This document shows positions 20,146 through 22,748 of a stretch of DNA of 39,496 nt, piece by piece. Where the stretch lies: the IMG/VR virus record IMGVR_UViG_3300028610_000299, positions 1-39,496 of that record. One strand, given 5' to 3'. The notes below the pieces were generated by a model. That model saw only the letters and a list, made by a program, of their open reading frames with translations. It was not told where the DNA came from and did not search any database. Numbering within the stretch: the stretch's first letter is position 1; every line of letters starts with the position of its first letter. The DNA comes from a virus. Made by a program: the position numbers and the translations under genes.

Positions 20146-20556
20146 ATGAGCGAGAAGATGGTCAAGATTGAATTTAATTGCCACGGGAACAGCTCGCCAG
20201 CTTACTCGTGCAATAAGCCAGGGGACAACTCTGGTGTTTATGTGCAAGCCACTGACGCAAAAGAGCTCCTTGCCGAGAATGCCAGGCTAAGAGAGAAGGT
20301 CAAGCAACTGGAAGCAGATGTTGCCCACCACAACCAGGGCTGGGACAGGTGTGTGGTTGAGAACAATGGGCTAAGGGAGCAGGTTGAGAATATAACGCTA
20401 CAACGAGATGTGCTCGCATTGAACAGGGACGGCAGAGACAGCCAGGTCATAGTTGTGATGGATGGAAACAAGGTGGCTTGTGTCGCTTGGCCAAAATCCC
20501 AAAGCGCATCAATGCCATTGGTAAGGATGCCACCACAAACCACAGAGGGAGAGTAG
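20146..20556 (+). CDS. Early coiled-coil protein
   Basis: 136 residues from ATG 20146, chosen because GGAGGG lies about eight bases upstream. The longer frame (from 20056) begins in the ssb hairpin. Residues 40-95 are a leucine-rich coiled coil (AKELLAENARLREKVKQLEADV, first part). The C-terminus includes SQVIVVMDGNKVACVAW, a likely beta sheet. Similar coiled-coil proteins are common in phage early operons without known function. Confidence 0.65.
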   Translation: MSEKMVKIEFNCHGNSSPAYSCNKPGDNSGVYVQATDAKELLAENARLREKVKQLEADVAHHNQGWDRCVVENNGLREQVENITLQRDVLALNRDGRDSQVIVVMDGNKVACVAWPKSQSASMPLVRMPPQTTEGE

Positions 20557-20558
20557 AG

Positions 20559-20783
20559 ATGGAAGAGGTTAAAAAAGGAGAGCGATGGTATGTCAGCAGG
20601 GCTGGAGCCCTGTGTCTCATTGAGTGCTTAGTGACAGACATCACAGCTGCAACAGTAGAGATAGTGGAGTGCGGCGCAATTGGAAGCAAGCGTGAACGCT
20701 ATACAAAAAAAGGATTGATGTTCATTGAGAGGACCAGAGAATCAGGATTGTCACCAGCACCAGAACAAGAGGAGGATCTGTGA
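20559..20783 (+). CDS. Small early protein, SH3-like composition
   Basis: 74 residues from ATG 20559, behind GAGGGAGAG. It reads VKKGERWYVSRAGALCLIECLVTDITAATVEIVE, five short strands that resemble an SH3-like barrel. No family name given. Its stop overlaps the start of the lipoprotein gene by four bases. Confidence 0.65.
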   Translation: MEEVKKGERWYVSRAGALCLIECLVTDITAATVEIVECGAIGSKRERYTKKGLMFIERTRESGLSPAPEQEEDL

Positions 20784-21040
20784 AAGCATTCGCATTGGTT
20801 CTATTGGTTCTCCTAGCCGGCTGCTCGCCCACAGGTGACACGCTGTATTCCGTAGGAGATAGGGTCTGCGTCAAGGGAACGCCTGTAGCTGGGTATGTGA
20901 AGAGGATTGTAAACCCATATCTGGACCCGTTCGGGAAGCAAAAGTATGTGCTGGTCTTCAAAACAGGGCGAACACTGTATGTCGCACACAGCGGCCTGGA
21001 AACGTGCAACGATTACTTGGCAGAACAGGAGGAGGGGTGA
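20780..21040 (+). CDS. Early outer-membrane-type lipoprotein
   Basis: 86 residues from GTG 20780, preceded by AGAGGAGGATCT. A short basic start and hydrophobic core end in the lipobox LLAGC; Cys15 would be lipidated. Residue 16 is Ser, which favours transport to the outer membrane. The mature part is a small beta barrel-like domain (DRVCVKGTPVAGYVKRIVN, KYVLVFKTGRTLYVAHSG) with two more Cys. Lipoproteins made early by phages often block receptors against further infection. That role is inference. It is too early in the map to be the Rz1 spanin. Confidence 0.78.
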   Translation: MKAFALVLLVLLAGCSPTGDTLYSVGDRVCVKGTPVAGYVKRIVNPYLDPFGKQKYVLVFKTGRTLYVAHSGLETCNDYLAEQEEG

Positions 21041-21348
21041 TGGAAGAATACATACTTGCATTGAGAGAGCCTGTGACAATTGAGGATATGAAGCCGCTCA
21101 TAGGTGAGAAAATTGACGTTCTCAAAACTTGTACGGAGTGGGGGCAAAAAGTCGTTTCAACCGACGAACTGTTGATCACAAGTGTAACATTTCCTGTGGA
21201 TGTCGTGAGCGGTGAATCTGTCGGCGTGATACAGGTATACAGCGACTATAAACTCAAAGGGGAAACAATCTATAACGCATGGAATAGCCTTGAAGGGGTG
21301 AAGAAGTTCATCCAGGCACATCTAGACAGCACCACCCGAATAGACTAA
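21040..21348 (+). CDS. Last gene of first early operon, unknown function
   Basis: 102 residues from ATG 21040, which shares one base with the lipoprotein stop (TGATG). AGGAGGAGGGG upstream is a strong binding site. Mixed alpha/beta protein (REPVTIEDMKPLIGEKIDVLKT; TSVTFPVDVVSGESVGVIQVYSDYKL; final helix SLEGVKKFIQAHLD). No signal peptide or known motif. A structured terminator follows. Confidence 0.7.
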   Translation: MEEYILALREPVTIEDMKPLIGEKIDVLKTCTEWGQKVVSTDELLITSVTFPVDVVSGESVGVIQVYSDYKLKGETIYNAWNSLEGVKKFIQAHLDSTTRID

Positions 21349-21402
21349 TATGAACACGTGCCAGTTAAGTAGTAGGCACCGCTCTTGGGGAAGGGCGATA
21401 AA

Positions 21403-21504
21403 GGTAGACGGTAGAGGGTTTAGATTTGAGGTTTCGGTATTTTGGGTATTCCCCGACATACCGTCTCCACCCACTACCGGGGCTTCAATTCTAAGCCCTT
21501 TTTT
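21403..21504 (+). terminator. Structured leader plus strong intrinsic terminator
   Basis: The final hairpin is GGGCTT (21480-21485) with AAGCCC (21493-21498), a 7-base loop, and T6 (21499-21504). Directly upstream, GGTA (21403-21406) can pair with TACC (21475-21478) and GACGGTA (21407-21413) with TACCGTC (21459-21465), with a smaller TCGG/CCGA stem inside. The whole 100-base unit would be a stable 3' end of the early transcript, or a small RNA released by processing. Confidence 0.85.
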
Positions 21505-22268
21505 GTGTCTGGAGTTCTTAGGTCGGCGATAAGCTGTAATATCCTAAGCTAAGCGCGCAGTCAGCAACGGCTACCAGACACATCCCTCCTCCCTCCCTCT
21601 GAGCGTTGTAGTCTGTATTGATGAGAGTAAAGAGTTTGTTTGATAGGGATATTGCCCCGACCCAAACGGCTTGCTGTAGCAGGTGAACGTGAGTGGTGAT
21701 AACTCAACGTCTGCTAATCACCCAGCACTCTCTTCAATACGGACTGCAGTAGTCTGTATATGTGGTGGTGTTATCAGCGGCGCTGGTAGAAGTAAGCGCA
21801 AAACAGTAGAAATGGCCGAGATAACGACGGCGGAAGATAGTTTTTGCGAGTGAACTGTAACCATTAGTGCTCGTGTTAAGTTCTAGGCTGATGAACACAA
21901 ACAGTATGTAGGGCTAGCATCCTACCTGATAGCACCCCTTCATATACAGATTACCGGGTTCACTTATACCGGCAGCTCGACACCCGACTAAAACGCGAAC
22001 GCCTCTAACCCGTAAGTTCAGCCAGGCATTTGAGCCAACGTACAATCAAAAGCTCCAGATCCAGGAAGGAACAGCAAAACGGATTATTGTGTTAGAGGGG
22101 GTGTTCTGGTGATCTACACTGTTTCGGATCACGCAGACTAAACAGCATTAGGTTGACATGAGATAGGCGACCGGCAAGTCGATAAAAGGTGTGCTGATAA
22201 GTTTTGATTGCATGACCAAGCAGTAATGAAGTGTAAGGAAGTAGGGTAGGTCAACAACCCCCTCTAAA
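21505..22268 (+). ncRNA. Large structured non-coding RNA candidate
   Basis: About 760 bases with no supported gene, in a genome where genes otherwise overlap. No frame of 60 codons lies within 21533-22147 on either strand. Pairings seen: 21610-21628 with 21727-21745 (18 of 19, one U-G, one mismatch); nested TAGCAG/CTGCTA (21677-21682, 21711-21716) and ACGTGAGT/ACTCAACGT; GTAGG/CCTAC (21908-21912, 21921-21925); GGCTGA/TCAGCC (21886-21891, 22018-22023); CGGGTT/AACCCG (21955-21960, 22007-22012); GTGATC/GATCAC (22109-22114, 22127-22132); CGAC/GTCG (22168, 22178); and a perfect 11-bp helix, 22092-22102 with 22257-22267, closing the 3' domain. G-U pairs favour the plus strand. GOLLD and ROOL are large phage RNAs of similar size, but membership is untested. 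Confidence 0.72.
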
Positions 22269-22292
22269 ATGACTTTATTGGAGAATGGTGGG

Positions 22293-22547
22293 ATGAGATT
22301 ACCAAAGCTATATGCGCCAGTGAGAATCAAGTTTTGGAGCCTTAGAGACGGATTAGGATCAAATTATGGTGTGGTGTTTGATGTCGATACACAGGTCGAA
22401 AGGAAGTGCAGGCGCGTGAAGTTCGAAGGCGGCTGGAAATGGCAAATTGTTGACTTCATGAACCTGGCCGAATGGGACTACATGGCCGAGCAAGACAAAG
22501 AGATTTTGGACGAGTACGGAAGTGATCTTGAATTCGAGTATCAATGA
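22293..22547 (+). CDS. Small protein downstream of the structured RNA
   Basis: 84 residues from ATG 22293, behind GGAG (22280-22283) and GGTGGG. An ATG at 22269 is in frame but lies at the end of the RNA's closing helix without a ribosome site. The sequence begins MRLPKLYAPVRIKFWSLR and ends acidic. A beta-rich core (NYGVVFDVDTQVERKCRRVKFEGGWKW) looks like a small OB or SH3 fold. Family unknown. Confidence 0.62.
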   Translation: MRLPKLYAPVRIKFWSLRDGLGSNYGVVFDVDTQVERKCRRVKFEGGWKWQIVDFMNLAEWDYMAEQDKEILDEYGSDLEFEYQ

Positions 22548-22589
22548 TAGTGGCCTAGGGTCTCATTAGACAGACTATTGGAGAATGAT

Positions 22590-22748
22590 ATGAGCGAATC
22601 GCACACCAGAAAGACAGATGAACAATTGCTAATCCAGTTTGTTATGGACCAAGGATTCGATGAGCCTGACCTTGTTGAGGCTGCTGTTCGCCTGGAAGAA
22701 GGGATTAAAGAAGGGCTACAGGATTATTCCATACCTGCTATTGATTAA
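22590..22748 (+). CDS. 52-residue acidic helical protein
   Basis: Starts ATG 22590 after TTGGAGAATGAT, a leader also present before the previous gene. Sequence begins MSESHTRKTDEQLLIQF and ends KEGLQDYSIPAID: one or two charged helices. A longer frame overlapping in another phase lacks support. Function unknown. Confidence 0.6.
   Translation: MSESHTRKTDEQLLIQFVMDQGFDEPDLVEAAVRLEEGIKEGLQDYSIPAID

Follow-up and report, generated by a model that had tools for sequence, protein, structure and literature searches.

What does the one long stretch without genes in this phage genome do? The window, by which we mean the whole stretch of DNA analysed (39,496 nucleotides), is an entire 39.5-kb viral contig, and a crude ORF-coverage scan finds a single gap of more than 300 bp in it, at 21349-22268. 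This non-coding region separates an early part, with genes for methyltransferases, RusA, a DnaC-like loader and Erf, from a lysis/terminase part, where an M23 peptidase that is likely the endolysin (24079) lies ahead of the terminase (28848). The terminase shares 68% identity with its counterpart in Pseudomonas phage AH02 and 92-94% with those of contigs from one metagenome sample. An earlier note on this DNA had described about 760 bp without a supported ORF, which is correct: 21533-22147 contains no ORF of at least 60 aa on either strand. Two 60-aa ORFs reach into the edges, at 21350-21532 (plus strand) and 22148-22330 (minus strand); the first is not coding, because non-triplet indels break it in the homologous contigs L061 and L062. 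The next real gene probably begins at the ATG at 22293, since a 75%-identical homologue in L003 begins there; it is the first gene downstream of the region (22293-22547, plus strand) and encodes an 84-aa protein of unknown family. Just ahead of a start codon, window positions 22554-22593 match L061 7416-7455 exactly over 40 nt with otherwise dissimilar flanks, possibly marking a conserved regulatory or recombination site. Readings of the region as an attP-type site were dropped, as no integrase (PF00589) was found.

Homologues were reached through contig G010 (L052/L039), which matches the window exactly over 25 nt. This led to four further contigs, L061, L063, L062 and L064, that carry the ends of a module that we call B; L063 has the same sequence as L061 at this locus. 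Window positions 21327-21618 align with L061 at 69%, and 21376-21618 align with L062 at 86%. Other searches added nothing: the neighbouring protein (22269-22547) retrieved only L003, which does not have the RNA; 21040-21348 retrieved no homologue; the region had no match in INPHARED phage DNA; the conserved linker and the 3' end gave no additional homologues; and the terminase relatives (92-94% identity; L004-L008 and G004), several of them short fragments, contained no RNA match. A 20-nt match in the Acidobacteriota contig L060 and the matches in L065-L070 were rejected as chance, being located in apparently coding sequence.

The region had been proposed to be a large, multidomain, structured RNA on the plus strand. 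Two helices drawn by eye in the earlier note were recomputed. The long one (21610-21628 with 21727-21745, said to pair at 18 of 19 positions) has 17 Watson-Crick pairs and one G-U pair in its 19 positions and extends to 21608-21628/21727-21747, and none of 12 mononucleotide shuffles gave a helix as good; the second, 22092-22102 with 22257-22267, pairs at 11 of 11 positions as described. The folding z-score of the whole region is -2.7 on the plus strand and -1.8 on the minus strand, and it is strongest in two blocks, modules A (-6.4) and B (-4.5), with -2.4 for a 3' domain, C. The plus-strand preference that the note had read from U-G pairs is borne out by 28 G-U pairs against 3 A-C mismatches on that strand (p 5e-6), and therefore the plus strand is the functional RNA. 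Covariation in related phages had been named beforehand as the test, and compensatory base changes were found in the homologues, counted over few sequences (four independent leaders and six or seven modules). We are highly confident that 21357-21954 is a real structured RNA.

The 5' part of this RNA is a leader spanning 21357-21505, built mainly from two hairpins, E and T, and followed by a further hairpin and a linker. Its features are as follows.

21323-21351, plus strand: sigma70-like promoter (TAGACA-17-TAATAT), predicted start near 21357
21358-21379, plus strand: hairpin P0, with one compensatory pair (C-G to U-A)
21380-21397, plus strand: hairpin P0b, kept in the window, L062 and L052 and imperfect in L061
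21406-21466, plus strand: early hairpin E, in which 21406-21413 pairs with 21459-21466
21414-21504, plus strand: long hairpin T, in which 21414-21424 pairs with 21490-21500 and 21426-21439 with 21475-21488 (25 bp), then T6 (U6)
21504-21582, plus strand: hairpin H2, TGTGTCTGG...CCAGACACA, from folding and homologues
21585-21605, plus strand: conserved linker CCTCCTCCCTCCCTCTGAGCG, identical in the window, L061, L062 and L063

The predicted promoter is the sole promoter-like site in 20500-22700, where 2.6 are expected by chance, and by itself it is weak evidence; by eye, the aligned positions read TTGCCA-17-GATACT in L061 and TTGCAA-17-GATACT in L062. P0 and P0b abut at the predicted 5' end (21358-21397). 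In a structure-blind MAFFT alignment of the window, L061 and L062, 96.9% of leader cells are paired, versus 42-46% with the partners slid, and 15 pairs show two-sided changes, versus 0-3 when slid. Across these three phages, such changes occur at 5 of the 8 pairs of E and 9 of the 25 pairs of T. Both hairpins are present in all four homologues, L052 included; the T duplex has an energy of -33 to -36 kcal/mol in each of the four, and the chance of an E-like pairing run is 0.2-5% per phage. L052 was reserved as an independent test because MAFFT misaligned it against the other leaders. A covariance model of the three other leaders (R2) finds the L052 leader with 22 bits (E 0.0012), its top non-training match in 564 kb. 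The stem of H2 is preserved in L061 through one-sided (G-U) changes and reads TGCCCGG/CCGGGCA in L052.

These boundaries differ from those first drawn. The RNA had been taken to begin at 21505 after a strong terminator outside it; the supposed terminator makes up the 3' side of a hairpin that is conserved in the RNA and lies inside the element, and the element's true start is near 21357. A simple terminator reading of GGGGCTTCAATTCTAAGCCC was rejected: in each of the four homologues its 3' arm finds its partner further upstream, and L061 has only a weak local hairpin. In simulated co-transcriptional elongation, E is the fold obtained until the transcript reaches about 21474, and T the one obtained once it reaches 21500. 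Because E's partner sits in the apical loop of T, above a 25-bp stem, the two probably are not both fully formed, and this geometry makes their mutual exclusion probable. The layout thus resembles an attenuator, with E early, T terminator-like and termination putative. That E and T form a transcription switch has, in our judgement, just short of an even chance; T could be a processing or other structure, because it is unusually long for an intrinsic terminator.

Downstream of the linker, the region consists of long-stem modules and the 3' domain.

21608-21747, plus strand: long-stem module A, with a 21-position stem and a variable interior (z -6.4)
21749-21954, plus strand: long-stem module B, with ends TAGTCTGTATATGTGGTG / CCCTTCATATACAGATTAC and a variable interior
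21955-21969, plus strand: conserved flank CGGGTTCACTTAT, 3' of module B
22092-22267, plus strand: 3' domain C, closed by the perfect 11-bp helix and assigned from folding alone

Modules are 140-206 nt long, with conserved ends and interiors that vary in length and sequence, and the stems of A and B both begin with GTAGTCTGTAT. Over seven modules, 85.7% of cells are paired, versus 26-43% when slid, and 9 pairs show two-sided changes. The ends of B are shared with L061/L063, L062 and L064, its 5' end also with L052, and 21935-21969 matches L061/L063 exactly over 35 nt. Their order differs between phages: the window has linker-A-B, L062 has linker-B-A, with the 5' end of A directly following the B module, and L061 has linker-B. 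In L064, a B module lies among different flanking genes. L052 has one module downstream of the leader, enclosing a T-arm, an acceptor stem and CCA, and one upstream, indicating that modules need not share the leader's transcript. The outermost 18-19 nt of B modules are nearly invariant even at unpaired positions, which suggests recognition by a protein. We rather doubt that the module ends serve as sites of processing or binding. No homologue of the 3' domain (22092-22267) was found.

Several genes and tRNA-like sequences lie beside these RNAs. Where the window has its 3' domain, L061 has an HNH endonuclease gene after module B; an RlmN/Cfr-like radical SAM protein, scoring below the equivalog cut-offs, also adjoins the RNA there (RlmN/Cfr-like and HNH loci, L061 5422-6213 and L061 6859-7371). 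A SpoU methylase adjoins the RNA in G010 (L039 2308-2751). The tRNA-like module of L052 lies at L039 1950-2120 (equal to L052 7250-7420) and surrounds a T-arm, an acceptor stem and a CCA end; L039 1967-2106 gives a weak tmRNA match (E 0.1). About 6 nt after the B-type module of L064, 8872-8996 is a tRNA match of 45 bits with a 53-nt D-loop insert, missed by ARAGORN. Elsewhere, L053 7600-7901 contains three tRNA-like 3' ends with CCA, one of them called by ARAGORN, which are probably degenerate or unusual phage tRNAs.

What role could such an RNA have? The earlier note had pictured a large ornate RNA and allowed that it could be a new class. The structured, multidomain character is supported, but the region resembles an operon leader, with a promoter-like site upstream, more than an RNA that stands by itself. 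Between 22200 and 29000, a stretch that includes the likely endolysin gene, the plus strand showed no terminator, which makes the region the probable leader of the late operon. At the level of sequence, a promoter-like site and then a terminator-like hairpin lie upstream of the lysis genes, as in a PR'-tR' late leader, and the slot matches the pR'/qut...tQ...holin slot of HK620. tRNA genes occupy the equivalent slot in relatives, and in lambdoid phages it holds PR'-tR', tRNAs and sRNAs. We consider it fairly probable that the region is a late-operon leader. The fuller reading, that 21357-22292 is an untranslated 5' leader to the lysis/late operon, works as RNA and includes both a switch and module processing, is our preferred one, and we hold it tentatively.

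Under this reading, E would form first on the emerging RNA. Once the last arm of T is complete, T would displace E and RNA polymerase would be released, so that early infection would yield a terminated small RNA of about 150 nt. Late in infection, polymerase would be let through by stabilisation of E, by the abutting hairpins at the 5' end or by a phage protein yet to be recognised, and read-through would express the late genes with no need for a lambda-type Q. The conserved A/B duplex ends of the read-through RNA would be targets for cleavage or binding by a protein that recognises double-stranded RNA, for which RNase III or a phage protein is a candidate; cutting would release stable RNAs whose interiors could evolve fast. 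The antitermination-Q family PF06530 had no match in the window, L061, L052 or L062 (the control matched), and PHROG scans of 30 window proteins revealed no Q. A PF06323 search carries no weight on Q, its control being unmatched anywhere. The Q of the window phage may be an unrecognised protein.

Two known systems are close to this layout. In Stx phages, the StxS sRNA derives from PR'-tR', and sRNA pairs lie between the late promoter and the lysis genes (PMC7873438). Compared by layout, the lambdoid PR'-tR' (lambda 6S RNA, StxS) likewise precedes the lysis genes and has about 150 nt between its promoter and a terminator-like hairpin, from which a short terminated RNA and read-through are expected; unlike it, the window has no recognised Q or qut site, and its leader has two covarying, competing folds. 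The put RNA of HK022 is a cis-acting RNA antiterminator of about 70 nt with two long stems in the early operons (PMC9378689). By description, the window shares with put the adjacent hairpins straight after the promoter, and it would likewise do without an antitermination protein from the phage, whereas P0 and P0b total 40 nt.

A stand-alone large ornate phage RNA like GOLLD or ROOL, with many helices serving as a scaffold or cage and the leader as its promoter-proximal domain, is unlikely. Its size, multidomain layout, phage setting and very stable modules would suit such an RNA, and GOLLD and ROOL are large structured phage RNAs of unknown function that often lie near tRNA islands (PMC12286853), much as the relatives have tRNA genes at this slot. 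The kinship with GOLLD, ROOL, HEARO or raiA that the earlier note had raised finds no Rfam match at gathering thresholds over the whole window, and at E<=10 across 21300-22400 only two chance-level matches to unrelated families appear. The window RNA also differs from a GOLLD/ROOL core in being modular, with interiors unconserved in length and sequence and with module number and order shuffled among phages, and no 3' end signal was found. Bacterial Y RNA (YrlA) had no Rfam match in the region; a Y RNA with a phage-encoded Ro was rejected, as TROVE (PF05731) is absent from the window and homologue records while its control matched; a partner Ro could come from the host.

Could A and B instead be small mobile or recombining elements, MITE-like, in non-coding slots, whose pairing reflects inverted DNA termini and not RNA function? 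Near-invariant inverted ends of 18-19 nt around unrelated interiors, the B module among different flanking genes in L064 and the variable order (B precedes A in L062 and follows it in the window, and L061 has B alone) would all be expected of such elements. However, the wobbles fit the plus strand only (28:3), the inner stems covary, the copies beside leaders are all oriented alike with respect to the leader, inspection by eye shows no target-site duplication, and the leader is left unexplained. We regard this reading as quite unlikely.

Very unlikely is a family of tRNA-like or decoy RNAs, in which long stems clamp degenerate tRNA(-like) domains against host translation control or tRNA-cutting defences. 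The T-arm/acceptor/CCA module of L052 with its weak tmRNA match, the tRNA with a D-loop insert past the B module of L064, and the SpoU methylase (L052) and RlmN-like protein (L061) beside the RNA point this way. Those tRNA-like parts belong to the L052 and L064 relatives, whereas the window gives no match to a tRNA/tmRNA cloverleaf or tRNA-like domain, and by eye there is no T-loop in the interiors of A and B. That an unused spacer or pseudogene folds this way by chance would suit the modest whole-region z (-2.7) and a 3' domain without homologues, but is next to negligible as an account of the locus: for 21357-21954 it is contradicted by the compensatory changes between independent phages and by the model's hit on a sequence outside its training set, and it may still apply to 21970-22292.

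Another RNA occurs in the same slot. AH02 and other phages have there a long stem block with a variable interior, then two hairpins with complementary loops. This unannotated and widespread K RNA (L002 33648-33786) consists of P1 and two hairpins, GCGC-AGGCUGAU-GCGC and GCCGG-AGAUCAGCA-CCGGC, whose loops are perfectly complementary (kissing). It shows two-sided changes at 12 pairs and matches no Rfam family. It is also present in L016, L017, L028, L046, L047, L055, L071-L073, L075, L077, L078 and L081-L083, and turns up in the late leaders of lambdoid phages, in tRNA arrays, in a P1-like phage and in prophages of E. coli. Its place in HK620 is upstream of the holin, with pR'/qut on one side and tQ on the other; in ZC03 it sits within a tRNA array. 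With AH02 as the blastn query, 175 INPHARED records matched, many over short lengths, and these are explained by K RNA; 107 of 5426 complete E. coli genomes have it, and none of the 12 matches listed coincides with an annotated feature. Like the window RNA, it has a long-stem block before it and is often beside tRNAs. Membership, which we define by P1 and two hairpins with kissing loops AGGCUGAU / AGAUCAGC, was rejected for the window RNA: model R1 gives no match at E<=10 (9.3 bits in an unfiltered local search), and window 21882-21898 offers one hairpin, GUUC-UAGGCUGAU-GAAC, its partner in order being absent.

To return to the late-operon leader, in the broadest reading it would define a new class of phage RNA, large and modular, in which a co-transcriptional late-gene switch is joined to a series of interchangeable long-stem cassettes. 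These would pass from phage to unrelated phage and take the place of tRNA islands, giving late control by RNA alone together with swappable RNA effectors; we think this doubtful, if conceivable. If the switch works, the late-gene decision would be taken through RNA folding in phages without a recognised Q. The long-stem modules, with their conserved ends, would represent a novel type of RNA cassette that phages exchange, at a location where tRNAs and regulatory sRNAs are known to gather, and K RNA, found in common lambdoid phages and E. coli prophages, offers an experimentally easy entry to the same question.
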